Assembly: GCA_032595675.1 (NCBI GenBank)
Contig: JAVQMD010000002.1
Coordinates: 248,001-312,000 of the forward strand
DNA from: Candidatus Electrothrix rattekaaiensis
GTDB taxonomy: Bacteria > Desulfobacterota > Desulfobulbia > Desulfobulbales > Desulfobulbaceae
Length of the DNA: 64,000 nt
Direction of reading: 5' to 3'
Both the position numbers and the translations under genes were made by a program. Of the stretch, positions 6,060 through 56,940 are shown piece after piece; position 1 is the first letter of the stretch; every line of letters begins with the position of its first letter. Below the pieces are notes generated by a model that was not told the DNA's origin, ran no database searches, and was given only the letters and a program-made list of their open reading frames with translations.

Positions 6060-8089
6060 TTATCGGAAGAATGAAGCGTTGCAGCAGTATAAGCCTGCCT
6101 TGGATCATTCGGGGTTCTGGGGAAGGCTATTTCCAGCTCGCCGCCCCTGACCATCTGGGTCAAATATTGACGACGAAGTGTTACTGGCCCCCTATGAATC
6201 AGTGCGGCAAGACAGCTGATGGTGATAAACTGCCCGTTCAGCAATTCCAGCAGCACCGCCTTTATCACCTCCCGAGGAACCTTCTTCTTCCCCCTCGGTT
6301 CTTTAGCCATGCCTTTCAGGGTATCAAGGTAATCGGATTCCAGGCTATCAAGATCATCTACGAACGGTAATGCATGGGTGGGTGAGAGAAGTCGTCCTAA
6401 AGTGTCGCGTTTCAAATTACCGGAGCTTTCCTCCAGATTGCCGGAGCTCGAATCCAAATTGCCGGAGTTCTCCTCCAAATTACCGGAGCTCGAATCCAAA
6501 TTGCCGGAGTTCTCCTCCAAATTACCGGAGCTCGAATCCAAAAGAGGGGAGTCAAACACATCCTCCGGTCCTGGAATATTTGTCCCGGAGAGATGATATA
6601 CCACTCCGCGACTGCTTCCTGTCTGCTCCAGAAACCCTTGCTCCACCAAGCCATGCAGGATACGACTTGCGTCTGCCGGATGAAAGGTGCTGAGTGTGCA
6701 AAAGCGTTGGTGGGTGACCGTATTTTCCACAACAGCGATGGCCAGCGCAACCTGTTCTTCATGGGACAGGGAATCATAGTTTTGCCCAAAACGTTGTCGC
6801 AACTGAACCACCAATTCTTGGGGGAAAAGATCAATCATCCGCATCCGCATCATGGTTTGATCACGGGGCTCTCGGCTATCAAACAGCTCTGGAGCACGCC
6901 AATGGTACCTATGCCAACAAGAGAGGATTTTTGAAATACCGGAGCCGGATTGATCGCCGATCCCCACATAGCGAAACATCTGATGGAGTAAGCGGTTGCG
7001 GCAGTCTGCATAGCCCCCATGCAGGGCAAGTTCCACAGGAATACGCATCATGCCGGGGTTTCTGAACTCGAACATTGCAGGAGATTTCACCACCAGGACA
7101 GCAAGTCGGTCCGAGTAATCAGCATGGACCAGCACATTGCATAAGGCTTCCCGGAGCGCAACATGGATCGGGGATTCATCCAGCCGTCGGTCACCGTCTA
7201 ACTCAAAAGGTACCTTGACGCCCTCGGTCAGCTTGAGGAAAACTTTGCGGTAAAAATCGTAGAGATTCCCTGACCAGGTGCCGTCCAGGGTGAGCCGATC
7301 AAGCCAGCGTGGTTCCGTTTGTGTTGCCGGTCGCTCCTGATAATCAAGCATGTACAAGGGAAATGCTTCCTGAATGGTGGTGTGTTTCCCAAACATCAGC
7401 AGCCCGGCTGCTGTCAGCCCTTCCTGATCGCTCTCCCTGTCTTTCCGCCAAGCCCCGATCCTCTGGAGAAAGGAAAGCGTTTCCAGCTCGTTCCACGGAT
7501 GGCCTGGTTTCAGATTCGTGAAGATCTGCCGATAGACTCGGATGCTTTCGGTGTTCAAGTCATCCAGGCCAAAGCCCTTGAGAATACGTGCATCACGGCT
7601 GTCCTCGGCCTGCTCAGCCAGCATCCGCCTGACTGCCTCGTCAGACAGGCGTTGATCACCTTCATGCATGCGGACATAGCTGTTGCCCAGGGGATTACCG
7701 TTGAGATAGACCGGTCGTTGCTCGCGGTTGGCGCGGGGGATCTCCACTTGCAGCAGGGATCGACCGTCAATGGTCAGGAGACGTACTGAGGTGTTGTTGA
7801 GCAGATTGACGCTGACCTTGCCGGGGTTGTTTGCTGTATTGAACAAATCCTGTTTGACCTTATCGATCCGTTCGATGCCAGTCAGGTGAAACCGGGTTCC
7901 TTTCTGGCTGATCCCCAGTAACACCGTGCCGCCGTCGCTGTTGGCCATAGCCGAATAGGTTTCCCAGAAATCCTTGGGTAGCTCGCCGCGACCATCGCGA
8001 CCACCGGCTCGTTTGCATTCCAGGTCGGAGGTTTCGTGGAGCAGATTGATGTCTTCCAGGGTTTGGAGGTTAATTTTGTAGCTGATCAT
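6047..8089 (-). CDS. AlbA_2/Schlafen-type ATP-binding protein with SGNL tandem repeats
   Basis: The N-terminal ~130 residues match the AlbA_2 (Schlafen-like) pattern, with ETSDLECKRAGG, then FWETYSAMANSDGGTVLLGI. A GHKL-like C-terminal ATPase region follows (ALREALCNVLVHADYS near residue 315), the architecture of proteins annotated as RNA-binding or RecG-like ATPase regulators. Residues about 525-565 hold seven SGNL repeats, encoded by a nearly perfect DNA repeat, as a linker before a helical C-terminal domain. Such genes are often interposed in type I restriction loci (the rlo genes of Campylobacter are an example from the literature). A role in defence or in regulating the locus is likely but unproven. 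Confidence 0.8.
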   Translation of the reverse strand: MISYKINLQTLEDINLLHETSDLECKRAGGRDGRGELPKDFWETYSAMANSDGGTVLLGISQKGTRFHLTGIERIDKVKQDLFNTANNPGKVSVNLLNNTSVRLLTIDGRSLLQVEIPRANREQRPVYLNGNPLGNSYVRMHEGDQRLSDEAVRRMLAEQAEDSRDARILKGFGLDDLNTESIRVYRQIFTNLKPGHPWNELETLSFLQRIGAWRKDRESDQEGLTAAGLLMFGKHTTIQEAFPLYMLDYQERPATQTEPRWLDRLTLDGTWSGNLYDFYRKVFLKLTEGVKVPFELDGDRRLDESPIHVALREALCNVLVHADYSDRLAVLVVKSPAMFEFRNPGMMRIPVELALHGGYADCRNRLLHQMFRYVGIGDQSGSGISKILSCWHRYHWRAPELFDSREPRDQTMMRMRMIDLFPQELVVQLRQRFGQNYDSLSHEEQVALAIAVVENTVTHQRFCTLSTFHPADASRILHGLVEQGFLEQTGSSRGVVYHLSGTNIPGPEDVFDSPLLDSSSGNLEENSGNLDSSSGNLEENSGNLDSSSGNLEESSGNLKRDTLGRLLSPTHALPFVDDLDSLESDYLDTLKGMAKEPRGKKKVPREVIKAVLLELLNGQFITISCLAALIHRGPVTLRRQYLTQMVRGGELEIAFPRTPNDPRQAYTAATLHSSDKDTP
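6412..6543 (-). repeat. In-frame tandem repeat encoding SGNL units
   Basis: About three copies of a 42-base unit, each made of two related 21-base halves (core AAATTGCCGGAG and AAATTACCGGAG), lie inside the AlbA_2 gene. They encode alternating SSSGNLE and ENSGNLD heptads. The unit length is a multiple of three, so copy-number changes keep the frame and only alter linker length. Confidence 0.9.
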
Positions 8090-32870: not shown

Positions 32871-33036
32871 CCTTTCAAGTTGTTGCATCGTTGAAATGTG
32901 CTGCTGCTGACATGCAGCATGTCGTGAGATCTTAAGGCCAAATTGTATATTGCGATTTTTAAGTATGATGAAATGTATCAGCTTTAATACCTACCCATAA
33001 ATCCATGCCATGTCACGAAAAAAGAGACTTCCACAG

Positions 33037-33081
33037 TCTTTCCCCTTGAACTTTCCGAGAACATGCGATAGTTGTCTGTAC
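33037..33081. repeat. 45-base dispersed repeat, copy 1
   Basis: TCTTTCCCCTTGAACTTT then ACATGCGATAGTTGT, nearly identical to 35308-35352 in the same orientation. The two copies lie on either side of the Panacea-type module. No reading frame explains the repeat. Confidence 0.75.
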
Positions 33082-33096
33082 TTTCCCCACAAAAAG

Positions 33097-33273
33097 ACGG
33101 AACCTTCTGCTGAGGAATGGGTGATGGTCGGTACGGCCCTGGAAACCGAGGCACTGGAAACCGAGATTACCCTGAATAATCAGGAGCGCGGCAAGGAGCA
33201 CGAGTATCGGGTTATCGCGGTGAACAAGGCAGGCGAGAGTGAAGCGAGTAATACCGTGACTGCGGTGCTTTGA
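33097..33273 (+). pseudogene. Fibronectin type III domain fragment
   Basis: The frame encodes ITLNNQERGKEHEYRVIAVN then KAGESEASNTVTAVL and stop: the last strands of a fibronectin III domain (the EYRVxAVNxxGES pattern). The start of any such protein is missing; the frame instead runs back into the 33037 repeat. It is a 3' remnant of a larger surface protein gene and ends before a good terminator. Confidence 0.7.
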
Positions 33274-33484: not shown

Positions 33485-34255
33485 ATGAATACTCAGCGGA
33501 TAGAAAATTTAATCAAATATATGTTAACCGTTGCAAACCAGAATGAAGACTGGAGAAGACGTGAGCTCGGACCTATACATATAATTAAGTATTTGTATCT
33601 TGCTGATATGTACTATGCAAAAGAATCTAATGGAGATACGTATACCAGAATAAACTGGGAATTTTACCATTTTGGCCCTTGGAATCTTGAGTTATACAAG
33701 GATGCAATACCGAAAGCAGTTCAAAACATCGGTGCTATAGAGAGGATATTTTCAAGCCAATACACAAATGATGGTGTGCGTTGGTCAATAAAAGATGTAC
33801 ACCCGGATGAGGTAACAAGAACACTTCCGATCAAAATATATCCTCTTTTAAACAGGGACCTAAAAAAATTTAGTTCAGACACCTATGATCTTTTACACTA
33901 TGTATACGTAACACCTCCCATGACAAACGCACGCCCCGGAGAAAAATTGCAGTTTAGAAGTGTCGTAGTTCCGAAAGAGGATAAAGTTGAAACGTTCGAG
34001 AAAAAGACGACAATTCGAGAAAAAAAGAAGAAAAAAGAAAGGATTCTCAGTATAAGGGAAAAAATTAGACAAAGAAAAGAAAACAAAAAGACTATTGTAC
34101 CTACTCCGCCAAGATATGACGAAGTGTTTTTAAATGGCGTTATGGAAATGAATAATGATTTTTCTCTAAAAGAAATAGAAGACCATAAAGGTGTATTACA
34201 AGTTTCTCAAAGTGCCTGGAGCAAAGACTGGAGGAAAGATTGTGACCTACCCTGA
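33485..34255 (+). CDS. Panacea-type (SocA-like) putative antitoxin
   Basis: The 256-residue protein begins with the pattern of Panacea/DUF4065 domains: IENLIKYMLTVANQN...HIIKYLYLADMYYA then INWEFYHFGPWNLELY. Panacea domains are known antitoxin modules paired with many unrelated toxins. The C-terminal third is a highly charged helix (REKKKKKERILSIREKIRQ) then a short end domain. The DNA is clearly AT-richer than the genes around it. It overlaps the next gene by 14 bases, which fits a coupled two-gene module. Confidence 0.75.
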   Translation: MNTQRIENLIKYMLTVANQNEDWRRRELGPIHIIKYLYLADMYYAKESNGDTYTRINWEFYHFGPWNLELYKDAIPKAVQNIGAIERIFSSQYTNDGVRWSIKDVHPDEVTRTLPIKIYPLLNRDLKKFSSDTYDLLHYVYVTPPMTNARPGEKLQFRSVVVPKEDKVETFEKKTTIREKKKKKERILSIREKIRQRKENKKTIVPTPPRYDEVFLNGVMEMNNDFSLKEIEDHKGVLQVSQSAWSKDWRKDCDLP

Positions 34256-34994
34256 TGGTACGCTTCAGAAATTTTTTAATGATAATAGCTGGTGGGACGA
34301 AAGAACAGACAAAATCTTAACACCAGGACGATTGATATGGGCTTTTATTCCACACGTTGACATCATGCCCAAATCAATGATCCAAGCCGGAAGACTGGAA
34401 GATGAAGCCGGAAATCATAATAAAATTAATTATGAAATAGCCGATCTTCGCATAAGAAATTCTTACAATCCGATGAAAAATCTTCCAACGGCTATCCTGC
34501 CGTATTTCCGCGAGGAATGTTATACTGTACATAGATCCAAAAAAAGACCTGCATTAGTGCTTGGAGACGGCGGACCTGAAATACCCAAGGAATTAAGGTC
34601 AAGTATGAAACCAAGTTGGCACGTAAAACCTACAATAACTGTCGCGCCATACTACGGAGCTGAAAAAAAAGGACAAAACAAATGGTATGAGCCCTTTGTT
34701 GAACGAATAAAAAAGTGTGAATATCCACAATACATATGGGATATTCTTCCTATTCAGTCCGAAACAAAAACATCTATCTTAAGACTTGACCATATACAAC
34801 CAATAGGAAAACATTATAATTCTTATGAGTTGACAGATTATGTATTGCAACCTGAAGTCATGGACTTACTGGTTAATGAATGGTTGCCTTGGCTCTTTAC
34901 AGGAGTAATGGAAGTATGTGAAACAGAAGGATGCAAGAAGACTTACTTACTTAATGAAATCAGAGACGAATTACTGAGCGATCTATCAGTGTAA
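34242..34994 (+). CDS. Putative toxin paired with the Panacea-type gene
   Basis: I do not recognise this 250-residue protein with certainty. ILTPGRLIWAFIPHVD near the start, RPALVLGDGG near residue 100 and SILRLDHIQPIG near 180 resemble, in order and spacing, the beta-strands of PemK/MazF-like toxins. I place the start at GTG 34242, where GGAGGAAA lies four bases upstream; an upstream GTG at 34191 lacks a site. The start overlaps the end of the Panacea-type gene. Low-GC composition matches its partner. Confidence 0.6.
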   Translation: MTYPDGTLQKFFNDNSWWDERTDKILTPGRLIWAFIPHVDIMPKSMIQAGRLEDEAGNHNKINYEIADLRIRNSYNPMKNLPTAILPYFREECYTVHRSKKRPALVLGDGGPEIPKELRSSMKPSWHVKPTITVAPYYGAEKKGQNKWYEPFVERIKKCEYPQYIWDILPIQSETKTSILRLDHIQPIGKHYNSYELTDYVLQPEVMDLLVNEWLPWLFTGVMEVCETEGCKKTYLLNEIRDELLSDLSV

Positions 34995-35424
34995 AAAGCA
35001 ACTTACTTGAACATCCCGCCCTCTTTCTCTCCGCTACTATTTTTTACAAGCCCACCCTGCAAATTTTGCATACCTTTTCTATGGCTACAATAGACCTCCT
35101 CCTGCAAATCTAAAAAGTACGTCTCGCAACCACTTGATACACAGCGTATTTTGCAGGAAGTCTAATCTATGAAAAATACCCCTCTCGGTATCACAGGCAG
35201 AAATCAAACCGCGCCGTGATGGGATATAGAGATCGGGCTCGTAAACTCAAATCACAAACTCATTCAACTTCATTGCGGTCTTCTCCACTTTAAAGAAAAA
35301 ATTGCACTCTTTCCCCTTGAACTTTACAAAAACATGCGATAGTTGTTTGTAATTCTCTCAACTATCTCTTCCGCCCGTTCCGGTCGGAAAACGAATAATT
35401 AAATATAGCTCTTGCAACTCTATA
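34995..35424. other. Non-coding spacer with the second 45-base repeat
   Basis: No gene is seen in these 430 bases. Copy 2 of the dispersed repeat is at 35308-35352. TCCTGCAAAT and ATTTTGCAGGA (35099-35159) form a loose inverted repeat. The right end should hold the hisC promoter, but I cannot name one. Confidence 0.55.
35308..35352. repeat. 45-base dispersed repeat, copy 2
   Basis: Same sequence as 33037-33081 with a few changes (ACTTTACAAAAACATGCGAT in place of ACTTTCCGAGAACATGCGAT), same orientation, 2.27 kb apart. Confidence 0.75.
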
Positions 35425-38401: not shown

Positions 38402-38995
38402 ATGACCATGTCGCTATTGAGCAATCTTTTTGGTTGGAAGAAACCCTTGCCTGAGGCAAAGCAGAGGAAAATGGCGGACTCGCTTCTTCAGGAGGCACGA
38501 GCACTTGCAGCGAATAAGCCGAACAAGGCACTTTCCCTGCTCCGGCATAAAAGCAAACCTGCCTATGATGTACTGCGTATCGGAGGGCCGATGCATGACG
38601 AATTCCGCAGTCTGGTCGTGAGGATACGGTCACGGCGGGAGCAATGCCCATTCCTTCCCTCCACTGCGGTGGAAGTGATTTGCTGGGATACTTGGCAGAA
38701 TCCCATGTTCCGCGACATCGCTGATCGTGCCCGAAAAACAGAGGCCGAGGTCTTGTATATGACGCCAGCTCCCAAGCGAAACCCTAGAGACGCGATGGCC
38801 GAGCTTGAGGCTTTGCAGATGCTGTACGATCCAGAGGTGGGCGTGATGACCATTGGTGAAGAAGGGGTGTTCCTGCGCTGTTCTTTGATCTTGACAGCGG
38901 CAGGTAACCTGCCGGATGATGCTGAGGAAATCATTCAGGATATGTTGGATCAGGCCAAGGTTCAGGGGCTGAAGGTTGGGTGGGTTACGGTGTGA
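38402..38995 (+). CDS. Hypothetical protein whose 3' end is duplicated downstream
   Basis: The 197-residue protein (MSLLSNLFGWKKPLPEAKQR...) shows no motif I can name. It has a helical N-terminal third (Ala/Leu-rich), a Cys/Trp pair (VICWDTWQNP), and a C-terminal alpha-beta part. An ATG at 38408 is an alternative start after AAGGGG. The last 37 coding bases and about 70 bases past the stop are repeated at 40601-40700, so the ATPase gene lies between two copies of this gene end. Confidence 0.6.
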   Translation: MTMSLLSNLFGWKKPLPEAKQRKMADSLLQEARALAANKPNKALSLLRHKSKPAYDVLRIGGPMHDEFRSLVVRIRSRREQCPFLPSTAVEVICWDTWQNPMFRDIADRARKTEAEVLYMTPAPKRNPRDAMAELEALQMLYDPEVGVMTIGEEGVFLRCSLILTAAGNLPDDAEEIIQDMLDQAKVQGLKVGWVTV

Positions 38996-39066
38996 GTACA
39001 AGATGGCTTTTGGTAGAAATCCTCTTTGTCTGCACTCAGGCCAGTTGTGGCCGGATTCCAGATTAT
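38959..39066. repeat. Duplicated gene end, left copy
   Basis: GGTTCAGGGGCTGAAGGTTG and the next 18 bases (38959-38996) are identical to 40601-40638. Similarity continues through CTTTTGGTAGAAAT and CAGGCC-GTTGTGGCCGGAT. The left copy holds the stop codon of the upstream hypothetical gene. Confidence 0.9.
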
Positions 39067-39099
39067 CCACACTACTGACCCGCAAACAAGATCAATCCG

Positions 39100-39127
39100 T
39101 TGACTTTAACTGTAATTACATTATACT
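39100..39127 (+). promoter_or_regulatory. Promoter of the DUF4143 ATPase gene
   Basis: TTGACT (39100-39105), 16 bases, TATACT (39122-39127). The spacer includes TGTAATTACA, a ten-base palindrome close to the mazEF operator half-sites. Confidence 0.55.
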
Positions 39128-39158
39128 AAGATCAAGATAATGACCTTAGGTGAAAAAT

Positions 39159-40595
39159 ATGAAAAAAGTCTCAGAAAAACAAGTAATTAAACGTATCAAA
39201 ATTGAAAACCCTTGGTGGGAAACACAGAAAATACCAACGGCCTATCTTGCGTTTAAGCCTCGATCTTACCTTGAGCTTTTCTACCCTTTAGTTCAGACCA
39301 AAAAAATTCAACGAGCAACGGTCTTGATGGGGCCGAGACGAGTTGGCAAGACAGTAATACTCCACCATACTATACAGAACCTCATTGACAGTGGTTATGA
39401 CCCCAACAAAATAGGATATTTCTCTGTAGATCACCCCATTTACAATGGATTAGGCCTAGAGGAATTACTTGAACTTTTTTCTGCGGCTACTGAAACCAAT
39501 TATCACGAGGATGAGTGCTACATCTTTTTTGATGAAATACAATATCTCAAAAATTGGGAAAATCATCTTAAACTTCTTGTAGACCGTCAGCCAAACTTAA
39601 AATGTACCGTGTCTGGATCAGCTGCGGCAGCATTGAAATTAAAAAGCTCAGAATCTGGAGCAGGAAGATTTACAGATTTCCTGTTGCCGCCATTAACATT
39701 TCACGAATATCTTGAGCTTTTAGATAAAAATAATCTGGTTATACCACCAAGCGAAGCGAATGGTTTTTTCAAACCACGCAATATAGAAAAATTAAACGAA
39801 AGTTTTATTCACTATCTTAACTATGGAGGATACCCTGAAGTTATTTTCTCCGACATAATCCAATCAGACCCAGGTCGTTTTATCAAAAGTGATATTATCG
39901 ACAAAGTTCTTCTGAGGGATTTGCCGGGTCTGTATGGTATTCAAGATATACAGGAACTCAACTACCTTTTTACAACACTAGCTTTTAACTCATCAAACGA
40001 AGTGTCCTTGGAAGAACTATCCAAAGGATCAGGTGTCGCTAAAAATACGATAAAAAAATATATTGAGTACTTAGAAGCTGCTTTTCTTATTAGAACAGTT
40101 CATAGAATAGACAGAACAGCTAAGCGCTTTAAACGTGCCAATTTCTTTAAGGTTTATTTGACGAATCCGTCTATTCGAAGTGCCTTATTTTCTCCTGTTG
40201 CTCATTCTGATGAGGCTATAGGGGCTCTCTCGGAAACGGCTATATATTCTCAATGGTTTCATTCCGACACCTTACTCCATTATGCTCGATGGAAAAACGG
40301 AGAGGTTGACATCGTTCACTTGAACAAACAATTAAAGGTCTCATGGGCTATTGAGGTTAAATGGACGGATAGATTTTTCACCAGACCTCATGAACTGAAG
40401 AGTCTTATTCAATTTTGCCACTCAAATAATGTTACAGGGGCTGCTGTAACGACTATGACAAAATCAGGAAAAGTAACCGTTGAGAATGTTAATTTTGATT
40501 TCATCCCCACAAGTTTATATTGTTATACGGTCGGTTACAATATTGTGAAAGGTAAACAAAACATAAGAGAGGGACTAACCAGCGGAGCAACCTGA
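39159..40595 (+). CDS. AAA ATPase with DUF4143 C-terminal domain
   Basis: The 478-residue protein has Walker A GPRRVGKT at 58-65, Walker B CYIFFDEIQYL at 120-130, a sensor region (KCTVSGSAAAALK) and a DUF4143-type C-terminus with LLRDLPGLYGI, a winged-helix region and EVDIVHLNKQLKVSWAIEVKW (nuclease-like strand pair). Proteins of this class are widespread in bacteria and archaea with no settled function. The ATG at 39159 follows AGGTGA; a GTG at 39150 is possible. Composition is AT-rich next to neighbours and it sits between direct repeats, so it looks inserted. Confidence 0.85.
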   Translation: MKKVSEKQVIKRIKIENPWWETQKIPTAYLAFKPRSYLELFYPLVQTKKIQRATVLMGPRRVGKTVILHHTIQNLIDSGYDPNKIGYFSVDHPIYNGLGLEELLELFSAATETNYHEDECYIFFDEIQYLKNWENHLKLLVDRQPNLKCTVSGSAAAALKLKSSESGAGRFTDFLLPPLTFHEYLELLDKNNLVIPPSEANGFFKPRNIEKLNESFIHYLNYGGYPEVIFSDIIQSDPGRFIKSDIIDKVLLRDLPGLYGIQDIQELNYLFTTLAFNSSNEVSLEELSKGSGVAKNTIKKYIEYLEAAFLIRTVHRIDRTAKRFKRANFFKVYLTNPSIRSALFSPVAHSDEAIGALSETAIYSQWFHSDTLLHYARWKNGEVDIVHLNKQLKVSWAIEVKWTDRFFTRPHELKSLIQFCHSNNVTGAAVTTMTKSGKVTVENVNFDFIPTSLYCYTVGYNIVKGKQNIREGLTSGAT

Positions 40596-40600
40596 CCGCA

Positions 40601-40700
40601 GGTTCAGGGGCTGAAGGTTGGGTGGGTTACGGTGTGAGCCTAAGGTAGCTTTTGGTAGAAATATTATCTGTCATCAGGCCGGTTGTGGCCGGATATCAGG
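40601..40700. repeat. Duplicated gene end, right copy
   Basis: Second copy of 38959-39066, starting five bases after the ATPase stop. The first 38 bases are identical, the rest diverged by about one base in five. Confidence 0.9.
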
Positions 40701-41008: not shown

Positions 41009-41869
41009 ATGTTTTCACAAATTGTCGGCATTTGCGTTGTAATCACGTTTTTTTCTTTTTTATCCCCCGAGCAGCCACTTTCGCTGACTAAAGAGGATGC
41101 CACAGCCCAATGGAATGCCGTAAAAGGAACACAGAAAGAGTCCGCTTTTATAATCGATTTTATTCTGAAAATAAATATGCCGGGCTCCTTTCCTCATATT
41201 TTAAAGGAAAGGTTTTACGATATTGCTACCCCTGAGGATGCTAAATACTTATTGGACAAGTTAGTTAATCCAAGGTTCAGGGAAAAAACTACTGCAATTA
41301 CTTTATTGAAAGGGTTGAATGGTGTTGGATTTACAGTTTTATTTAAAGAATATCTCTATATCACTTCCAGTGATAGAGTGCAAAGGAAGTTATATAATCT
41401 TATCTTGTATCAAGATTCACTAGTAGCATTCCACATCGCTGTAACCTATTTGAACTATTTGCTGGCAAATGGAAAAGAAGACAGGGTGTTTTTCCATTTA
41501 TCAGGTATGAGTGTATTTAAGAATCCAGATATTAGGCAAACAATTATTGCAGGCGTATCTTCAACGTCGGTTGTTACTAGGGCTGCAAGCTATGTGGCAT
41601 CAAGAAACTATCCAGATGAGGAGGTATTAGAGATAATCGACCATGCCTTAGCGACAGATACAGCACGTATTCTCGGAGAAGAAAACAGCCCTTACTATTT
41701 GGGACGTAGAGCAGGAACTGCTGGTCAACAAGATACCCTCATAGTACATTTCCTTAAAATTGCTAAAAAAGAAATCACCAGAACGAAAAAAAATCTTCAT
41801 AGTAAGAACTCTGCAGAGGGTATGAGGAGGAAAGGCAACACCGCTCCACCAAGTCCTCTGTCCCACTAA
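41009..41869 (+). CDS. Hypothetical exported helical-repeat protein
   Basis: The 286-residue protein begins with a hydrophobic segment (IVGICVVITFFSFL) that may be a signal or anchor. The rest is helical, with HEAT-like pairs such as TVLFKEYLYITSSDRVQRKLYNLIL and QTIIAGVSSTSVVTRAASYVASRNYPDEEVLEIIDHAL. I do not recognise a family. The tail is basic and low in structure (RTKKNLHSKNS). AAGG lies just before the ATG. Confidence 0.6.
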   Translation: MFSQIVGICVVITFFSFLSPEQPLSLTKEDATAQWNAVKGTQKESAFIIDFILKINMPGSFPHILKERFYDIATPEDAKYLLDKLVNPRFREKTTAITLLKGLNGVGFTVLFKEYLYITSSDRVQRKLYNLILYQDSLVAFHIAVTYLNYLLANGKEDRVFFHLSGMSVFKNPDIRQTIIAGVSSTSVVTRAASYVASRNYPDEEVLEIIDHALATDTARILGEENSPYYLGRRAGTAGQQDTLIVHFLKIAKKEITRTKKNLHSKNSAEGMRRKGNTAPPSPLSH

Positions 41870-41927: not shown

Positions 41928-42779
41928 ATGACACAAATCGATCAATTTGAAAGTGTATTTCGGGCAGCGGCACACGATGCTTTTGAGTACGATGTCGTCG
42001 CATTTAAACGTATATTATTTGTTACCGATGGCAATGCCGAACAAAGCAAGGCCTTTGTACAGCAGACGCTTGACTATGCAACCAATTTAAAAGAATCAGA
42101 AATCGAACTGGTGCATGGTGAAGAATTTCAAACCACCAGTGAGTTGCTGGAAAAAGTTACCGCCTATCGCCCAGACCTGATCTGCACCTATCGGAATCTG
42201 CACAGCAAAGCATGGAAATTTCAGCACAGCTTGGGGGAGCACCTGGATGTGCTCCTCCAACGGACTGATGCGCCAGTCCTGGTCATGCCGCATCCGGAAG
42301 CCGGATTTGCCAATCTTGATGCGCTCCGGGAGACAAAAACGGTCATGGTGATGACCGGTCAGCTGGCAAACAATCACGCATTGGTGAATCATGCCGTCAG
42401 CTTTGTCGCACCGGGCGGTGAACTCTACCTGACCCATATCGAAAATAAGGCTGTCTTTGAACGGTATATCAATGCCATCTCAAAGATCCCCTCTATTGAT
42501 ACCGATGATGCGCGAAAACATATAGCGCACCAGCTGCTCCAAGACCCCATCAATTACATCACCTCCTGTCAGGAGGTCCTTGAGGAAAAGGGACTGTCCC
42601 TCAAGGTCCATCCTCTGGTCAGCTTCGGTCATCACCTGACCGAATACCGGCAGGCTGTGGAATCGCATGCAGTCAACCTGCTGGTCATGAATACCAAAGA
42701 CAATGAGCAGCTGGCCATGCACGGTCTGGCTTATCCCCTGGCGGTTGAATTACGCCAACTCCCTCTGCTGATGCTGTAA
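41928..42779 (+). CDS. Universal stress protein-like, tandem domains
   Basis: The 283-residue protein has two alpha-beta segments of USP type: FKRILFVTDGNAEQSKAFVQQTLDYA...LLQRTDAPVLVMPHP and VMVMTGQLANNHALVNHAVSF...AVNLLVMNTKDNEQLAMHGLAYPLAVELRQLPLLML. The ATP-binding glycines typical of the family are not clear. It ends two bases before the ion permease gene, so it is probably a regulatory partner of that transporter. Confidence 0.75.
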   Translation: MTQIDQFESVFRAAAHDAFEYDVVAFKRILFVTDGNAEQSKAFVQQTLDYATNLKESEIELVHGEEFQTTSELLEKVTAYRPDLICTYRNLHSKAWKFQHSLGEHLDVLLQRTDAPVLVMPHPEAGFANLDALRETKTVMVMTGQLANNHALVNHAVSFVAPGGELYLTHIENKAVFERYINAISKIPSIDTDDARKHIAHQLLQDPINYITSCQEVLEEKGLSLKVHPLVSFGHHLTEYRQAVESHAVNLLVMNTKDNEQLAMHGLAYPLAVELRQLPLLML

Positions 42780-51557: not shown

Positions 51558-51644
51558 TACGGCACTCTCCTCGTACCCCGCCACCCAAACCAAAGCAAAT
51601 TCGACCAAGTCCTGGAATGGGCCGAGAAGCAGCAGGTGAGATAG
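51558..51644 (+). pseudogene. In-frame 3' tail after the NACHT stop (tail-repeat copy 1)
   Basis: Directly after the NACHT TAA, and in its frame, the sequence reads YGTLLVPRHP then NQSKFDQVLEWAEKQQVR and TAG. Copy 5 at 55495-55662 reads KKYGTLLAPPSPNQSKFDQ in the same relation, so the stop (TAA) may replace a lysine codon (AAA). The repeat core is 51590-51636. Confidence 0.8.
51590..51636 (+). repeat. Tail repeat, copy 1
   Basis: 47-base core CCAAAGCAAATTCGACCAAG ... GGGCCGAGAAGCAGCAGG. Six copies lie between 51.59 and 56.50 kb, all in the same orientation. Confidence 0.93.
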
Positions 51645-51664
51645 GGGCGTTTCGCGAAACGCCC
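51645..51664. repeat. Perfect 20-base palindrome after tail copy 1
   Basis: GGGCGTTTCGCGAAACGCCC directly after the tail stop codon. A near-palindrome with the same centre follows copy 3 (52572-52591). It could act as a terminator-like hairpin or a recombination feature. Confidence 0.85.
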
Positions 51665-51757
51665 TTACTGTCGCCACGCAGCTCTTGCATCCTCATCTAT
51701 CACAGTGTATCATCCATATACGTACCCCTTCAATACTCCAATGAAAAAAGGTGGATT

Positions 51758-52009
51758 ATGCATACATTAAAAGCCTATGAAGAAGTGGTTGATTTCATAG
51801 CATCAGGTACAAATCCTGATACTGTCGCCGCCTTCAAACCCTCTGATGCTGTCAGAGAACGGGTAAGAGACCTTCTGTATTTTGAAAAAACAAAAGGTCT
51901 CACCCTGGAAGAAACATCTGAACTTGATCATTATATGCAGCTCGAACATTTAATGCGGCTAGCAAAGGCAAGGGCACGGAAATATGCCTCCGGCAAGCAG
52001 ATACATTAA
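51758..52009 (+). CDS. Small protein coupled to the HNH nuclease gene
   Basis: The 83-residue helical protein (MHTLKAYEEVVDFIASGTNP...LTLEETSELDHYMQLEHLMRLAKARARKY) resembles small antitoxin-like proteins often paired with HNH or PIN genes. The start at 51758 has AAAGGTGG upstream. Its end overlaps the HNH gene by 26 bases, so translation is coupled. An antitoxin or immunity role is inferred from layout. Confidence 0.72.
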   Translation: MHTLKAYEEVVDFIASGTNPDTVAAFKPSDAVRERVRDLLYFEKTKGLTLEETSELDHYMQLEHLMRLAKARARKYASGKQIH

Positions 52010-52424
52010 TCCCGATTTGCGGCAGTTTGTAGCGGAGCGGGCTGAACACCTCTGTGAATACTGCCTGATCCACGAAGACGACACCTACCTGGGTTGCGAA
52101 ATAGACCATATTATCAGCCTGAAACACGGAGGCATATCAGATGCCGACAATCTGGCTTATGCATGTACTTTCTGCAACCGCCATAAAGGAAGCGATGTCG
52201 GCTCTGTTCTCAATGATACGGAGTTTGTACGGTTCTACAATCCGAGGCAGGATCAATGGTCGGAACATTTTCACCTGGAAGGTCTCAATATCCGACCACT
52301 TACTTCTATCGGCGAAGCAACAGCAAAAATCCTGCTGTTCAATGCCGAGGAAAGACTCCTTGAACGGGAATCTTTGATTGAGATCGGCAGATATCCCTCC
52401 TTGTCCGCGATGAAGGTCTTGTGA
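51984..52424 (+). CDS. HNH endonuclease
   Basis: The 146-residue protein has a clear HNH site: CEYCLIHEDDTYLGCEIDHIISLKHGG, then DNLAYACTFCNRHKGSD, giving two zinc CxxC pairs and the His-Asn-His catalytic set. The C-terminal half is helical (GEATAKILLFNAEERLLERESLIEIGRYP). It may act on foreign DNA or as a toxin with the preceding protein. It lies between tail-repeat copies 1 and 2, forming one cassette. Confidence 0.88.
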   Translation: MPPASRYINPDLRQFVAERAEHLCEYCLIHEDDTYLGCEIDHIISLKHGGISDADNLAYACTFCNRHKGSDVGSVLNDTEFVRFYNPRQDQWSEHFHLEGLNIRPLTSIGEATAKILLFNAEERLLERESLIEIGRYPSLSAMKVL

Positions 52425-52441
52425 TCTCCCTTTCTCCCCAA

Positions 52442-52488
52442 CCAAAGCAAATTCGATCAAGTCCTGAAATGGGCCGAGAAGCAGCAGG
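52442..52488 (+). repeat. Tail repeat, copy 2
   Basis: 47-base core, preceded by a C-rich stretch (CTCCCTTTCTCCCCAA) as in other copies. Only 26 bases separate its end from the start of copy 3, so this interval holds no gene (an empty slot). Confidence 0.93.
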
Positions 52489-52514
52489 AAAATACTCGCG
52501 CCACCACCACCCGG

Positions 52515-52561
52515 CCAAAGCAAATTCGATCAAGTGTTGGAATGGGCCGAGAAGCAGCAGG
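52515..52561 (+). repeat. Tail repeat, copy 3
   Basis: 47-base core with GTGTTGG in place of GTCCTGG, followed by GTGAGAAATAAGAGTGTTTC then GCGAAACGCTC, the same downstream hairpin type as after copy 1. Confidence 0.93.
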
Positions 52562-52691
52562 TGAGAAATAAGAGTGTTTCGCGAAACGCTCCCTTACACC
52601 GCTACGCCCCCTCTTGCGTCCTGATTCATCGTGCTGTATCCTGCAATAAGACTCCCGATATCTTCACCTCGTAACAACAGGAGGAAAAAAC

Positions 52692-52931
52692 ATGGCAACA
52701 GCAACCGTCACAGCAAAAGGACAGGTAACTATACCGAAACAGATCAGAAAACTTTTACGTCTCGACAGAGGAAGTAAAGTTGAATTTATGGTGGATAAGG
52801 CCGGAGCGGTTTCCATCCTGCCGGTCACCTCTGACGTTACAGAATTAAAAGGAATGATTCCAAAGCCGAAAAAATACGTCTCAATAGAAGACATGAACAA
52901 TGCCGTGCAGGAACAAGGAGGCAAATTGTGA
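52692..52931 (+). CDS. AbrB/MazE-type antitoxin (VapB)
   Basis: The 79-residue protein starts MATATVTAKGQVTIPKQIRK, the AbrB swapped-hairpin DNA-binding domain, and ends in a toxin-binding tail. GGAGG lies upstream. Its stop overlaps the GTG start of a PIN toxin that is broken, so it survives as an orphan antitoxin. Confidence 0.9.
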   Translation: MATATVTAKGQVTIPKQIRKLLRLDRGSKVEFMVDKAGAVSILPVTSDVTELKGMIPKPKKYVSIEDMNNAVQEQGGKL

Positions 52932-53231
52932 CAGGCGTCGACACCAATGTGTTGGCAAGATACATTGCGCAGGATGACGAAATGCTACAAGCTCTCAAAG
53001 CTGAAAACCGTCGCTGTCCTAGAACGCGTTGTAAATACTTCACAGTTTGCTTTTGAGAATCCTCAGATTATCAGGCAGGCGTTAAACGATTATAAGGACG
53101 GGTCTGCCGACTTCTCTGATTATATTATCGGAAGAACAAATCAACATCACCGTTGTGTGAGAACAGTCACTTTTGATAGGGCTGCAGGCAAAGCAGAAGG
53201 TTTCGAGTTGCTGGCAACAGGAAAAAAGTAA
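52928..53231 (+). pseudogene. VapC-type PIN toxin, broken
   Basis: GTG at 52928 starts VTGVDTNVLARYIAQDDEML, the PIN N-terminus with the first Asp, but this frame ends at a TGA after about 40 codons. In another frame the C-terminal part follows (VLERVVNTSQFAFENPQI...YKDGSADFSDYIIGRTN...TVTFDRAAGKAEGFELL). A central segment is missing and the frame is shifted, so the toxin is inactive. Confidence 0.85.
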
Positions 53232-53270
53232 GTCAAACCGGATGAGCTTGATACTGCCGCTGCCCCCAGG

Positions 53271-53317
53271 CCAAAGCAAATTCGATCAAGTCCTGAAATG
53301 GGCCGAGAAGCAGCAGG
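53271..53317 (+). repeat. Tail repeat, copy 4
   Basis: 47-base core after a C-rich lead (CTGCCGCTGCCCCCAGG). It closes the AbrB/PIN cassette and opens the longest one (2.3 kb). Confidence 0.93.
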
Positions 53318-53442
53318 GGAAGTAAAGCATCCAACCCATAGTATACCCCTTTGACATATCCCGTATCCAGCAGTATAATACTGCTTGATGAACCGGCTAA
53401 CATAGTCAACCTTCCAAATACATTTCCCCCAAGAGGTGCCCC

Positions 53443-53679
53443 ATGAACTGCGCTCGAACCAAAATATTTAAAACCAACAGAAGCCAAGCAGTCCGCCTGC
53501 CAAAATCTGTCTCTTTTCCCGAATCAATTAAAGATGTTGAGATTGTAGCTATCGGCAATAAACGCATTATTGCTCCGGCAGATCAATCATGGGATGACTG
53601 GTTTGATGCACCGGGAGTTTCCGACGATTTCATGGAAGAGCGGGATCAGCCTAAAGACCAGATTCGAGAGACCCTGTAA
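53443..53679 (+). CDS. vapB: VapB antitoxin
   Basis: The 78-residue protein has an AbrB/SpoVT-type N-terminus (AKIFKTNRSQAVRLPKSVSF-like: TKIFKTNRSQAVRLPKSV) and a tail with DWFDAPGVSDDFMEERDQP, the usual VapB end that blocks VapC. It overlaps the toxin start by one base (TAATG). Confidence 0.92.
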   Translation: MNCARTKIFKTNRSQAVRLPKSVSFPESIKDVEIVAIGNKRIIAPADQSWDDWFDAPGVSDDFMEERDQPKDQIRETL

Positions 53680-54089
53680 TGTTGAAGTACATGCTGGATA
53701 CCAATATCGTTATTTATGCGATAAAAAATCGCCCGCAACAGATACGGAGCTGCTTTAAAAAGCACCAAGGACAAATGTGTATTTCCACAGTCACCCTTGG
53801 CGAGCTGATTTTCGGGGCAGAGCGTTCACAGCAGGTGGAACAAAATCTTGCTGATATCGAGGCAATGGTCGCCCGAATGGAGATACTGCCCCTAGACAAC
53901 GAAGCCGCCTACCATTTCGGCCAGATACGGGCAGAACTGTACCGGATCGGCCAGCCCATAGGACCATATGACATGATGATTGCTGCTCATGCCCGGTCAC
54001 TGGGGCTCATTGTGGTGACAAATAATACCAAGGAATTTAAACGGGTTTCCGGGCTGCGCCTAGAGAACTGGGTGGAAACGGATTGCTGA
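53679..54089 (+). CDS. vapC: VapC toxin, PIN ribonuclease
   Basis: The 136-residue PIN protein has the acidic set D7 (MLDTNIVIY), E42 (TLGELIFG), D98 (GPYDMMIAAHA) and the late TNNTKEF. VapC enzymes cut tRNA or rRNA. It appears intact and pairs with the VapB just upstream, so this is the one complete VapBC module in the array. Confidence 0.94.
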   Translation: MLKYMLDTNIVIYAIKNRPQQIRSCFKKHQGQMCISTVTLGELIFGAERSQQVEQNLADIEAMVARMEILPLDNEAAYHFGQIRAELYRIGQPIGPYDMMIAAHARSLGLIVVTNNTKEFKRVSGLRLENWVETDC

Positions 54090-54142
54090 GAATGCCCTCC
54101 CCGAAACATCCTGACGTAACAGCATTGTATTGCATCTTTGGG

Positions 54143-54162
54143 TATCCGGTTGTATCGTAAAA
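54143..54162 (+). repeat. 20-base repeat after VapBC
   Basis: TATCCGGTTGTATCGTAAAA matches 56385-56404 (TATCCGTCTGTATCGTAAAA) at 18 of 20 bases. Each copy lies a short way past a toxin-antitoxin pair. Confidence 0.55.
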
Positions 54163-54200
54163 ATCGAAGCGCAACATACATCATAACAGAGTGTGCTGAA

Positions 54201-54500
54201 ATGAAATTAGACAAGAAAGCATTACAGGGCATCAAGGAGTACCTCATCGGCCAACCGGTAAAAAAAGCATACCTCTTCGGCTCCCATGCACGAGGAACCG
54301 CCAATGCTGACAGCGATGTTGATATTCTTGTTGAATTGGATCACGCAAAGCCCATCGGGCTGCATTTTATCCGAATGAAACTTGAACTGGAAAGCCTTTT
54401 GCAAGTCAAGGTTGATCTGCTTTCCGACAAAGGCATGTCAAAATATATACGCCCGTATATAGAGCACGATAAAAAATTGATCTACGAAAAAAATGCTTGA
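54201..54500 (+). CDS. mntA: MntA-type minimal nucleotidyltransferase antitoxin
   Basis: The 99-residue protein has the nucleotidyltransferase site GSHARG (27-32) and DSDVDILVEL (Asp39, Asp41). In HepT-MntA modules this enzyme blocks the HEPN ribonuclease by adding AMP to it. I start at ATG 54201, where the family pattern begins; the ribosome site is weak. The partner toxin gene overlaps its stop by eight bases but is broken. Confidence 0.88.
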   Translation: MKLDKKALQGIKEYLIGQPVKKAYLFGSHARGTANADSDVDILVELDHAKPIGLHFIRMKLELESLLQVKVDLLSDKGMSKYIRPYIEHDKKLIYEKNA

Positions 54501-54749
54501 TGACAAAGCGCGATTACAGCATATCTTAGACGCAATCCTTGAGATTGAAGAGTACATGACAACTCACACGGAGGCTGATTTTTTCAGCAACTCGATGTTG
54601 TCTTCTGCATGTGTATCCGCCAGCTGGAGGTAATAGGTGAAGCGGCAGGCAGGGTGTCCGAGGAGACCAAAGCAGAATCAGCTGATATTCCGTGGAAGGA
54701 AGTCGTCGGCCTGCGTAATAAAATAACCGTAAAATTAATAACGTATTAA
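54493..54749 (+). pseudogene. HepT-type HEPN toxin (DUF86), frameshifted
   Basis: The first frame reads MLDDKARLQHILDAILEIEE then YMTTHTEADFFSN and runs into a stop. A second frame continues QLEVIGEAAGRVSEETKAES...DIPWKEVVGLRNKI, the DUF86 C-terminal half. After RNKI the sequence reads TVKLITY, so the catalytic Rx4-6H histidine is lost and the end is truncated. The toxin is inactive while its MntA partner is intact. Confidence 0.87.
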
Positions 54750-54803
54750 CAGCAGCACTCAGTTATCACACAGCCTGCTCATCAACAATGAGGCGAGAAA
54801 ACT

Positions 54804-55082
54804 ATGAACACATTAACTCCTGATCGCAGCCAATTAATTAAAGCAATAAACAAACTGCCTGTGGATGTCCTGCCGGAACTGGCTGATTATTTGGCCTACC
54901 TTCAGTTCAAAATCAAATCAGTCGCAAAACCTGAAAAAACGAAACAAAAAAGTAGTTTTTTATTATCAATTGCAGGGCTTGGAGAAGCGGAAGAAGACCT
55001 GTCGGAACGTGACGAAGAAATCTTGTCCGAGGAAATCGACCCTGTTCGCGGCTGGAGCTTGAACAGAGAAGAACAGGCGTGA
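54804..55082 (+). CDS. Probable antitoxin (DUF2281-like)
   Basis: The 92-residue protein has an N-terminal helical pair (LIKAINKLPVDVLPELADYLAYLQFKI) like small antitoxins of the DUF2281 kind, and an acidic tail. It overlaps the next PIN gene by four bases (GTGA). Confidence 0.8.
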   Translation: MNTLTPDRSQLIKAINKLPVDVLPELADYLAYLQFKIKSVAKPEKTKQKSSFLLSIAGLGEAEEDLSERDEEILSEEIDPVRGWSLNREEQA

Positions 55083-55492
55083 CCGCATTGCTTGACACCA
55101 GCTTTCTGCTGGCAATGACCAATACCAAAGACCGCAACCATCACCGTGTGCTGAATACAGCTGAACGCATTGATGATCAGCTTGTTCTGCCGGTGACAGT
55201 TCTGCCCGAAGTGAGTTACCTGATCGGCTCGCGATTAGGCCATAAGGCTATGCGACAGTTTCTGCAAAGAGTAGTTGTCAGTGATATCTCCCTTGAAACG
55301 CTGACAATCACCGATCTGAAACGAGTTGCAGAAATTCTGGAAGAATATGCCGACAGCCGATTGGATTTTGTTGATGCGACGCTTGTCGCTGTCGGCGAAC
55401 GGCTGAACATTACTCGTGTCCTGACGCTTGATCGGCGAGATTTTTCTATCATTCGTCCCTCACACTGCTCATATTTTGAAATATTGCCGTAA
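55079..55492 (+). CDS. PIN-domain toxin
   Basis: The 137-residue PIN protein starts at GTG: MTALLDTSFLLAMTNTKDRNHH with Asp6, a Glu in LPEVSYLIG, the DFVDATLVAVGERL block and LTLDRRDFSII. It appears intact with all acidic residues. It pairs with the overlapping gene upstream. Confidence 0.9.
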   Translation: MTALLDTSFLLAMTNTKDRNHHRVLNTAERIDDQLVLPVTVLPEVSYLIGSRLGHKAMRQFLQRVVVSDISLETLTITDLKRVAEILEEYADSRLDFVDATLVAVGERLNITRVLTLDRRDFSIIRPSHCSYFEILP

Positions 55493-55494
55493 AA

Positions 55495-55662
55495 TTCCTC
55501 TGGCAACTGGACGTACAAGGGCTTGGAGTTGTGCATAAGGAACGCACCCCGGCGGACCTGAAAAAATACGGCACCCTGCTCGCACCCCCGTCACCCAACC
55601 AAAGCAAATTCGATCAGGTCTCGAATATACTGGAATGGGCCGAGAAGCAGCAGGGGAAGTGA
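55495..55662 (+). pseudogene. 3' fragment of a lost gene, carrying tail repeat copy 5
   Basis: An open frame of 55 codons ending at TGA has no start. It reads FLWQLDVQGLGVVHKERTPA, DLKKYGTLLAPPSP, NQSKFDQVSNILEWAEKQQGK. The last part equals the in-frame tail after the NACHT stop. This is the longest piece of the parent C-terminus in the window and the best probe for identifying it. Confidence 0.75.
55599..55654 (+). repeat. Tail repeat, copy 5
   Basis: 56-base form of the core with a nine-base insertion (around TCGAATATAC) shared only with copy 6, so copies 5 and 6 form a subtype. Confidence 0.93.
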
Positions 55663-55780
55663 GGAAGCAAGAGGGCGATGATAAACACCCTCACTTCTGA
55701 CCGCAAGCTCCTTCTTTTGACTACCAAATTATACACACAATTTACTTGGCATTAGGATATAAACACGATACAATAAAGCA

Positions 55781-56050
55781 ATGCAATATGAATGGGACGA
55801 AAAGAAACGACGCAGAAATGTTGAAAAACATGGTGTTGATTTTACAGATATCAGCGAGTTTCAATGGAAGGATGCCCTTGAAGCTGTTGATGATCGGTTC
55901 GACTACGGAGAAGAACGGATCAACGCAGTCGGCTTTATCGGAACACGGATTGTTATTGTAACGTATGTCGAACGAGGAGAGGTCATTCGGGTAATAAGTC
56001 TGCGCAAGGCCACCAAAACAGAGGAAAAATTCTATCATGAGTACAGCTAA
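55781..56050 (+). CDS. brnT: BrnT-family ribonuclease toxin
   Basis: The 89-residue protein has the BrnT pattern: MQYEWDEKKRRRNVEKHGVDF, then RFDYGEERINAVGFIGTRIVIVTYVERGEVIRVISLRKATKTEEKFY. It is a RelE-fold ribonuclease toxin. The toxin comes first and overlaps the antitoxin by 14 bases, the usual brnTA order. Confidence 0.94.
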   Translation: MQYEWDEKKRRRNVEKHGVDFTDISEFQWKDALEAVDDRFDYGEERINAVGFIGTRIVIVTYVERGEVIRVISLRKATKTEEKFYHEYS

Positions 56051-56360
56051 ATACACAGCGGGCCAACTGAAGAAAATTAAATCGGAAACAGACTGGCGGC
56101 GGGTTGACGCAATGAGCGATGAGACCATTGTCGAGGCTGTGAAAATTGATCCGGACAGCAGACTCCTTAATGCGGATGACTTCAAAAAGATGCGACGCAG
56201 GGGGCCGCAAAAAGCACCGCTTAAAGACCGTGTCAATATCCGACTTTCTCCTGATGTTGTTGCTTTTTTCAAAAATCAGGGTATAGGTTGGCAGACGAGG
56301 ATCAATGAAGTTTTACAAAATTATGTGGAGTCACACAGGACTCCTTTGCAAAAAAAGTGA
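56037..56360 (+). CDS. brnA: BrnA-family antitoxin
   Basis: The 107-residue protein ends with a ribbon-helix-helix segment (KDRVNIRLSPDVVAFFKNQG then IGWQTRINEVLQNYV) that binds both the toxin and the operator. It overlaps brnT. The pair appears intact. Confidence 0.93.
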   Translation: MSTAKYTAGQLKKIKSETDWRRVDAMSDETIVEAVKIDPDSRLLNADDFKKMRRRGPQKAPLKDRVNIRLSPDVVAFFKNQGIGWQTRINEVLQNYVESHRTPLQKK

Positions 56361-56384
56361 AGCATGATTTTTGTGCCCTTCAAA

Positions 56385-56404
56385 TATCCGTCTGTATCGT
56401 AAAA
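56385..56404 (+). repeat. 20-base repeat after BrnTA
   Basis: TATCCGTCTGTATCGTAAAA, 18 of 20 bases equal to 54143-54162. Confidence 0.55.
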
Positions 56405-56444
56405 GAAAATACTTCAATGCTCTACTTACCGCTCCCCCCCCCAA

Positions 56445-56501
56445 CCAAAGCAAATTCGATCAGCTACTCGAATATACTGGAATGGGCCGAGAAGCAGCAG
56501 G
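56445..56501 (+). repeat. Tail repeat, copy 6
   Basis: 57-base form like copy 5. Here the frame that gives NQSKFDQLLEY is shifted relative to the EWAEKQQ end, so this copy no longer codes for the full tail. It marks the right end of the array. Confidence 0.93.
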
Positions 56502-56940
56502 AGAACGCAAAACAATCCCCTTGAGTTGCTTGGAGCACAGACGCATCACCGCATTCTGCACTCCGCTCTCCCCGTCTGCGCAGCCAAAAAAGCCCTCTCT
56601 CCTACCAAAACGGCAAGAAAACACTGGACAAACCCCGATCAGCTCATTATTCTACTATGAAATCAAGCAACAACCCCTGTCCTTCTGTTGCTTCTGCCAA
56701 GAAATTTCATTCAGCCCCAAAGAAAAACCAAGTAGCAGCGCAGCAAACTCATGCAGCAGGCAGGAAAAATCATTCAGTGCCGGGAAAAACAACCAAGGAG
56801 CACGGAAAAATGAGCGCGAAGTTCGGCAAAATGACCGAGGAGCAGTGAAAAACCAATAAGAAGCTCTCCTCTACCGTTTTTCCAGCCTGCACTCACCCTT
56901 TTCCGGCAATCTCTCCCATAACTCCAGCCAGGAGCGCACC
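56502..56940. other. Spacer after the array
   Basis: I see no gene I can support in these 439 bases. Short Lys/Ser-rich frames exist on the plus strand but lack ribosome sites and family features. Confidence 0.5.

Follow-up and report, generated by a model that had tools for sequence, protein, structure and literature searches.

The window analyzed here is a stretch of 64,000 nucleotides (nt) from Candidatus Electrothrix rattekaaiensis (genome G000; contig JAVQMD010000002.1, positions 248,001 to 312,000), in which a gene for an AAA_14-DUF4143 ATPase lies between two direct copies of the 3' end of the preceding gene, here called gene A. Gene A has no named family: its best Pfam match is below the cut-off, and it has no NCBIfam match at E<=0.01. 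The insertion has the following parts (positions are those of the window; ORF, open reading frame; aa, amino acids).

38402..38995, plus strand: gene A, 197 aa, intact, no named family; the ORF whose 3' end adjoins the unit
38958..39061, plus strand: repeat copy 1, on the cargo side; the last 38 nt of gene A including the stop, plus about 66 nt of tail
39085..40599, plus strand: the unit as delimited by DNA alignment with genome G333; it comprises the putative operators, the promoter, and the ATPase ORF with a few bases beyond its stop
39150..40595, plus strand: AAA_14 + DUF4143 ATPase, 481 aa; the likelier start is the ATG at 39159
40600..40699, plus strand: repeat copy 2, the orphan; 38 to 39 nt of the gene A 3' end plus native tail, joined to the native downstream flank and collinear with the empty sites in two genomes of the same genus, G006 and G005

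The repeat, its empty sites, and the inserted unit

The original prediction for this locus placed a duplicate of the gene A 3' end after the ATPase gene, and both a direct-repeat search and an alignment confirm it. The search pairs 38958-39030 with 40600-40672 (73 nt, 88%) and 39026-39061 with 40664-40699 (36 nt, 81%), with a spacing of 1638-1642 between the copies, and a gapped alignment of copy 1 with copy 2 matches in 86 of 100 columns. The copies begin with an identical stretch of 39 nt (38958-38996), which is made up of 35 coding bases, the TGA stop codon (38993-38995), and 1 further base. The repeated gene end with its stop is therefore as predicted, while the predicted count of 37 coding bases is two too many. 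The local alignment score of the focal repeat is 127. In a control of 300 random, same-distance pairs of 450-bp stretches from the window, 2 pairs overlap the focal repeat (scores of 115 and 58), and the other top scores are 88, 88, and 72, followed by scores of <=29. Since the scores of 88, 88, and 72 stem from other repeats in the window, the focal repeat is far above chance but is not the window's sole one. It has exactly two matches in its own genome, which rules out a dispersed element. The same two-copy count also rules out an integron cassette, as does the presence of a conserved gene's end within the repeat (an attC search was not made).

Two genomes of the genus have an empty site. 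In G006 (one contig of 4.8 Mb) and in G005, gene A is followed by one repeat copy and no ATPase gene, and the flank is collinear with that of copy 2 in the window. The G006 orthologue of gene A is 92% identical, and the G005 orthologue is a fragment at a contig end. Gene A and the repeat have no match at E<=0.001 in 5 of the other 7 congeneric genomes. The original prediction had suggested looking for strains without the ATPase that carry a single copy of the repeat, which describes G005 and G006, and it would have been contradicted by the presence of both copies in all relatives whatever their ATPase status, which is not what these single-copy genomes have. A single copy in relatives without the insert is also what characterizes a long target duplication. 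Further downstream lies another ORF of accessory type.

41009..41869, plus strand: second accessory ORF, 286 aa, no Pfam match; flanked by the native tail and by a conserved gene at 41928

The interval that holds this ORF contains unmatched DNA in G006 (~1.2 kb) and in G005 (~0.8 kb). Because the three genomes differ between the native tail and the gene at 41928, this interval is open to insertions.

The GC content of the inserted unit is 0.38, compared with 0.47 in the flanks, in agreement with the differing composition that had been predicted for the ATPase gene. Among 395 sampled genomes of the phylum, G333, which belongs to another family of the same order, has the ATPase's nearest relative (85% aa), and the DNA alignment with G333 spans positions 39085-40600, so that its right edge is the first base of copy 2. 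According to the ORF list and Pfam, there is no recombinase gene within the repeats; a single ORF fills the unit and is AAA_14-DUF4143. The Pfam matches of this protein are AAA_14 (5.1e-31) and DUF4143 (8.9e-23). It has a Walker A motif (GPRRVGKT), a Walker B motif (FFDEIQ), and a C-terminal GEVDIV...EVKW motif, and the motif residues, including D387 and E402-V-K404, are invariant in 6 homologues. We read the GEVD...EVK residues, which we take to be those of a PD-(D/E)XK-type site, as a putative nuclease site of this type. The AlphaFold2 model (mean predicted local distance difference test score, 78.7) resembles Orc/Cdc6, clamp loaders, and STAND ATPases in a PDB search; the 50 PDB matches listed are all AAA+/STAND proteins, with no stand-alone nuclease among them. 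The matches on mobile records are 2 plasmids at E<=1e-30 and 3 distant phage matches at E<=1e-10. PADLOC assigns the ATPase to PDC-S01 (3.2e-58). In the accessible part of the source (PMC12988326), PDC-S01 is an ATPase fused to a PD-(D/E)XK member and is ranked as the fourth most common (candidate) defense system across prokaryotes, most such candidates being without experimental validation. We infer that the focal ATPase is a candidate for a role in defense against phages.

The separate ATPase promoter that had been predicted at 39100-39127 can be read directly in the sequence, and it is accompanied by two palindromes.

39088..39107, plus strand: operator-like palindrome 1, AAGATCA-N6-TGACTTT, overlapping the -35 box; the same palindrome, with a spacer of 6, lies upstream of related ATPases
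39100..39127, plus strand: sigma-70-like promoter TTGACT-16-TATACT, with TTGACT at 39100-39105 and TATACT at 39122-39127
39126..39149, plus strand: operator-like palindrome 2, CTAAGATCA-N6-TGACCTTAG, just after the -10 box; 13 of 14 core positions, and 14 of 14 in G333

Upstream of the ATPase, 35 of 84 loci from several phyla carry AAGATCA-N6-TGATCTT with 12 or more of its 14 core bases (the motif was defined from the focal locus, G333, L219, and L221, all of which are among the 84), and the spacer is 6 in all 35. The mean best palindrome score of shuffled upstream regions is 9.6. One site over the -35 box and one after the -10 box is the layout of an autorepressed promoter, in which the palindromes would be the operators, and the unit is a self-contained, probably autoregulated, single-gene accessory module. 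Downstream of the ATPase, a palindrome score of >=13 is reached in only 2 of the 83 loci scored there, and this rarity rules out the palindromes as element ends on both sides of the ATPase. At L219 and L221 (Zixiibacteriota), unlike at the other loci, the palindrome flanks the ATPase homologue on both sides, inside direct repeats of 95-170 nt.

Flanking repeats at other accessory modules

The original prediction had proposed a search for further DUF4143 genes between duplicated gene ends, and such genes do exist, at duplicated ends of genes and of tRNAs (e.g., at an HtrA-like gene of G001). Direct repeats with a score of >=50 flank 16 of 76 DUF4143 loci, compared with 0 of 30 EPSP synthase housekeeping controls (p 0.005 vs DUF4143) and 4 of 29 HipA genes (p 0.58 vs DUF4143). 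For the closer subfamily of the ATPase from named genomes, the count is 9 of 76 loci, compared with 5 of 118 neighboring ORFs (p 0.08); as sorted by eye, both the 16/76 and the 9/76 include repeats other than gene-end duplications. The repeat test is passed by 2 of 17 other window ORFs of 300-560 aa and by 1 of 28 in 100 kb of G006. These loci are the best-scoring of longer lists, with up to 30 per search and, for the subfamily set, the best 80 of 523. Flanks of 1000 bp were tested for the DUF4143, HipA, control, window, and G006 genes, and flanks of 800 bp for the subfamily set; four loci per ATPase set and one HipA locus were dropped for short flanks, and L073 was left out as a second copy of L020.

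Several of these repeats are derived from the target. At DUF4143 loci, tRNA-Gln is present twice as a whole (L059), and the repeat is the 3' end of tRNA-Asn at L039/L157 and the end of tRNA-Leu at L079; at the HipA locus L142, the repeat is tRNA-Sec. L094 is tRNA-like by eye, yet ARAGORN finds no gene there. The repeat at L012/L159 is the last 202 nt of the HtrA-like gene of G001, while that at L203 (an Elusimicrobia genome) is the end of a upp-like gene and that at L244 (a Gemmatimonadetes genome) is a gene 3' end. The HtrA-like gene has one copy and no ATPase within ~1.5 kb downstream in 7 of 7 other genomes, and the downstream flank there is not collinear with that of the orphan. On visual inspection, L020 proves to be an array of Rpn-like paralogues; the repeats of L063, L056, and L067 look dispersed, those of L053, L069, and L072 are ambiguous, and, in the subfamily set, those of L210, L255, and L272 look dispersed or low-complexity. 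L018 adjoins a duplicated ATPase fragment. The closest ATPase relative, L037 of G333, is a miss, with no repeat around the ATPase in 19 kb. At L158 (5705-5746 / 7466-7507; L041), a 42-nt identical hsdM-like piece lies upstream of a DUF4143 gene, which precedes an intact hsdM.

These counts bear on whether the ATPase-nuclease is itself the mobility enzyme of a one-gene element. The combination of an ATPase with a putative nuclease motif, the repeats at 16 of 76 DUF4143 genes, and the conserved palindromes at the left edge, which stand on both sides in the two Zixiibacteriota loci, would be consistent with such an enzyme. However, the same repeats are found at unrelated modules (HipA, methylases, and VapBC), the closer subfamily differs from neighboring ORFs only at p 0.08, and the palindrome, rarely found downstream, is otherwise at the operator position. 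We therefore consider it very improbable that the ATPase moves itself. Mobility special to DUF4143 genes is ruled out by the similar HipA rate, and the pattern is shared by many accessory modules rather than being peculiar to the DUF4143 ATPase.

We surveyed 272 kb of G000 and 320 kb of G006 for further modules of this kind. The survey filter passed 30 pairs in G000 and 8 in G006, of which 16 and 3, respectively, were set aside as multi-copy. From the remaining 14 and 5, we dropped 257606 and 257702 (dispersed), 299547 and 299590 (array), 320482/3819864 (the same in both genomes), 340047 (two rows), and 3970133. The names murD, murG, methylase, VapB, PIN, and AAA_21 are from Pfam, while dnaX, lyase, fabG, HtrA, upp, hisC, and Rpn-like are from reading translations. 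In G000 (C2:378029-381960; L172), an orphan 93-nt murD 5' end is followed by an Eco57I-type methylase and a helix-turn-helix protein and then by intact murD. The 213-302 nt before this orphan align with the murD upstream region in G001, G002, G003, G004, and G007, i.e., in 5 of the 6 other genomes with murD; the sixth, G006, has no native upstream alignment and has part of the cargo side in common. In G006 (C1:3749605-3751908), an orphan 5' end and the intact copy of a dnaX-like gene enclose a C5 DNA methylase. Other partial copies of the dnaX-like gene start lie upstream in G004, G007, and G001, so that this gene is a repeated target. The survey also contains an AAA_21 ATPase, split over two ORFs, before murG with an orphan murG end; VapBC between 166-nt repeats; a 137-aa ORF behind the duplicated 3' end of a 495-aa lyase-like gene; and a transposase-like set at a fabG-like gene, for which G000 has a single copy of the fabG-side repeat. 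In the window itself, a 50-nt direct repeat (33034-33083 / 35305-35354; 88%) surrounds the ORFs 33485-34255 and 34191-34994 upstream of a hisC-like gene; this ORF pair has no NCBIfam or PADLOC match, and the repeat is single-copy in G006. By eye, positions 33097-33273, inside this repeat interval, look like a fibronectin-type 3' end. The original description of the locus as accessory DNA between duplicated gene ends thus holds for the ATPase and for several other modules in G000 and G006.

Two arrays were seen as well. At 51575-56505 of the window, 4-6 related repeats of 39-65 nt are spaced 73-3184 nt apart, which is possibly the tail array mentioned in the original prediction. In G006 (C1:3478372-3480320; L160 373-2321), there is a long tandem array of 144-nt units that are ~97% alike.

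The variety of sites and repeats bears on site-specific integration, in which a recombinase acting in trans would use the gene end as an attachment site and the identical 39 bp as the crossover core. An identical core followed by diverged tails is what such a process would leave, and the DUF4143 loci at duplicated tRNA ends (L059, L039/L157, and L079) resemble attachment sites. In contrast, the unit contains no recombinase ORF, the homology extends beyond the core, and the repeats vary by locus from ~30 to 270 nt and are also found at the 5' ends of murD, murG, and the dnaX-like gene. We regard site-specific integration as unlikely.

Duplicated target or imported allele

The anatomy of the focal locus is the one described for restriction-modification genes in the accessible parts of PMC3874152, PMC1643837, and PMC3031569, and it could arise by literal duplication of a long target. 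In that case, a wide staggered cut or repair synthesis would have copied ~100 bp, and the two copies, identical at insertion, would have diverged later. Duplication predicts neutral change in the orphan, and we compared this prediction with the codon differences between copies in 9 cases, hand-picked where the intact gene is assignable (the focal case has no coding difference, and L018 was omitted for indels). Across the 8 coding cases, 68 synonymous and 33 nonsynonymous changes separate the copies, over 257 and 808 sites, respectively, which is a ratio of per-site nonsynonymous to synonymous change (pN/pS) of 0.155. The six gapless cases have 53 synonymous and 18 nonsynonymous changes, a nonsynonymous share of 0.254, whereas simulation of duplication followed by decay gives a share near 0.6, and 0 of 1000 runs are as low as 0.254 in each of 4 settings. 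When single cases are left out, p stays <0.001 (the weakest value is 0.00094, without the lyase), and when L044 (4 vs 3) is added, p is still near 1e-7. The synonymous/nonsynonymous counts are 24/3 for the lyase, 7/1 for upp, 3/0 for murD, 4/3 for dnaX, and 6/4 for HtrA. Since the differences are synonymous-rich rather than neutral, the copies look like functional alleles.

We also determined which of the two copies is derived. In the focal tail, copy 2 has the G005/G006 state at 9 substitutions, compared with 2 in reverse (p 0.07), or 11 vs 2 (p 0.02) with two sites just beyond the repeat. By majority outgroup, the cargo-side copy is derived more often than the flank-side copy in the lyase (14 vs 9), murD (2 vs 0), and HtrA (5 vs 2), and the count for dnaX is 3 vs 4. 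For the five loci including the focal one, the cargo-side copy is derived at 33 sites and the native-flank copy at 17 (p 0.03; p 0.05 if the focal count is taken as 9 vs 3). For the lyase, the orphan is followed by 500 bp that match the flank in G000 and G003, which indicates that this orphan is native by position. Because a constrained intact gene should change less than an orphan, this direction opposes plain duplication; the polarity counts taken together lean the same way but weakly, and no single locus is firm.

Based on the two copies, the two empty sites, the discrete unit, the recurrence of this architecture at other modules, and the allele-like copies elsewhere, all of which are observed, we favor, with a probability of roughly 0.55, the explanation that the repeat consists of a donor allele and a recipient remnant brought together by one-sided homologous recombination and is not a target duplication. 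The ATPase-nuclease module would have been acquired at the gene A 3' end on donor DNA from a related lineage, in which the module already lay behind that lineage's own allele of the gene A end. Homologous recombination within the gene end would have joined one side, and the join on the other side would have needed no homology, having formed either directly (homology-facilitated illegitimate recombination) or following circularization and a single crossover. Gene A would thereby have been kept whole with a donor-derived tail, and the recipient's own gene end would have been left as an orphan behind the cargo. ComEC is encoded, which alone is no proof of competence. At the focal locus, the evidence for a donor allele is suggestive and comes from about a dozen tail sites.

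A number of observations weigh against an imported allele. The focal coding part has 0 differences, so that the codon test is mute on the focal locus, and no donor with gene A and this ATPase was found. The pooled codon result rests much on the lyase; murG (9/7), L244 (9/7), and the fabG-like gene (6/8) are near neutral, and some orphans are clearly decayed. If a 4-nt deletion in focal copy 2 is also counted, the focal polarity is 9 vs 3 (p 0.15). Five columns are common to copies 1 and 2 and differ from both outgroups, G005 and G006, which means that the donor would have to be closer than these two genomes; in-lineage duplication with unequal rates may have occurred at this locus. Polarity also depends on the outgroup, as an earlier scoring with G003 alone for three loci (7 genomes for HtrA) gave 43 vs 12, which falls to 33 vs 17 by majority. 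The four loci other than the focal one give 24 vs 15 (p 0.20). The dnaX locus points in the opposite direction, and its native promoter is attached to the intact gene. Single genomes reverse the polarity of murD (G001), the lyase (G002), and HtrA (G004 and G007). The downstream flank of the HtrA orphan is not found elsewhere, and its native status is an assumption. Finally, there is no sharp mosaic breakpoint in the lyase, murD, or HtrA gene profiles. The five shared columns and the nonsignificant four-locus polarity are also points in favor of literal target duplication, as is the fact that the HtrA copies are 95% alike while both are ~79-86% like other species. Such duplication is possible but doubtful, since the orphan should then decay neutrally, yet the differences are synonymous-rich, and the orphan is not more changed than the constrained intact gene.

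Comparison with known systems

Insertion with long target duplication is reportedly known for restriction-modification genes from the work of Nobusato et al. in 2000 and of Furuta et al. in 2010. The focal insertion belongs with this class, with a candidate defense ATPase as its cargo. The PDC-S01 copy here moves with neither a transposase nor an integrase of its own, and the anatomy of the locus offers a route. An imported allele would explain why the neighboring gene stays intact, and the codon test offers an inexpensive check on whether any given long target duplication, the classical restriction-modification cases included, represents a duplication or the import of an allele. We tentatively extend the imported-allele explanation to the "long target duplications" around defense and selfish modules in general, which might be junctions of donor and recipient alleles; core-gene ends might then be ports for the recombinase-free spread of one-gene defense modules such as PDC-S01 between species. 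In the literature searched, which was accessible in part and had subscription journals mostly outside it, there was no report of duplicated gene ends around DUF4143 genes and no allele test of such duplications.

The focal ATPase shares with PDC-S01 the combination of an AAA ATPase with DUF4143 and the Walker A and B motifs, and it differs in its gene-end duplications, which are absent from the accessible part of the PDC-S01 description (PMC12988326). In homology-facilitated illegitimate recombination, described for Acinetobacter, Pseudomonas stutzeri, and Streptococcus pneumoniae and rare in Escherichia coli, and also proposed for displaced 3' regions in Vibrio type VI secretion system immunity arrays (accessible parts of PMC3240628, PMC5361080, and PMC2884548), we see a close counterpart of the process we propose. 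The two would have in common one homologous anchor and one nonhomologous join; they differ in that the anchors here are core-gene ends and the cargo consists of defense-like modules, and in that our case is known from sequence alone. Integrative elements at tRNA and gene 3' ends likewise have the gene 3' end as direct repeats on both sides. In contrast to these elements, the focal unit has no integrase, repeat length and site vary, and 5' ends are used too. A long target duplication, in the accessible parts of its descriptions, is an accessory module between ~100-bp direct repeats that are single-copy in relatives (PMC3874152, PMC1643837, PMC3031569). The focal locus shares the insert between two ~100-bp direct copies and the single copy in relatives. 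It differs in that the cargo here also includes a PDC-S01 ATPase and toxin-antitoxin genes and in that the copies are more like two alleles than like one duplicated target. What is new is that the differences between copies are mostly synonymous, as they are between functional alleles.

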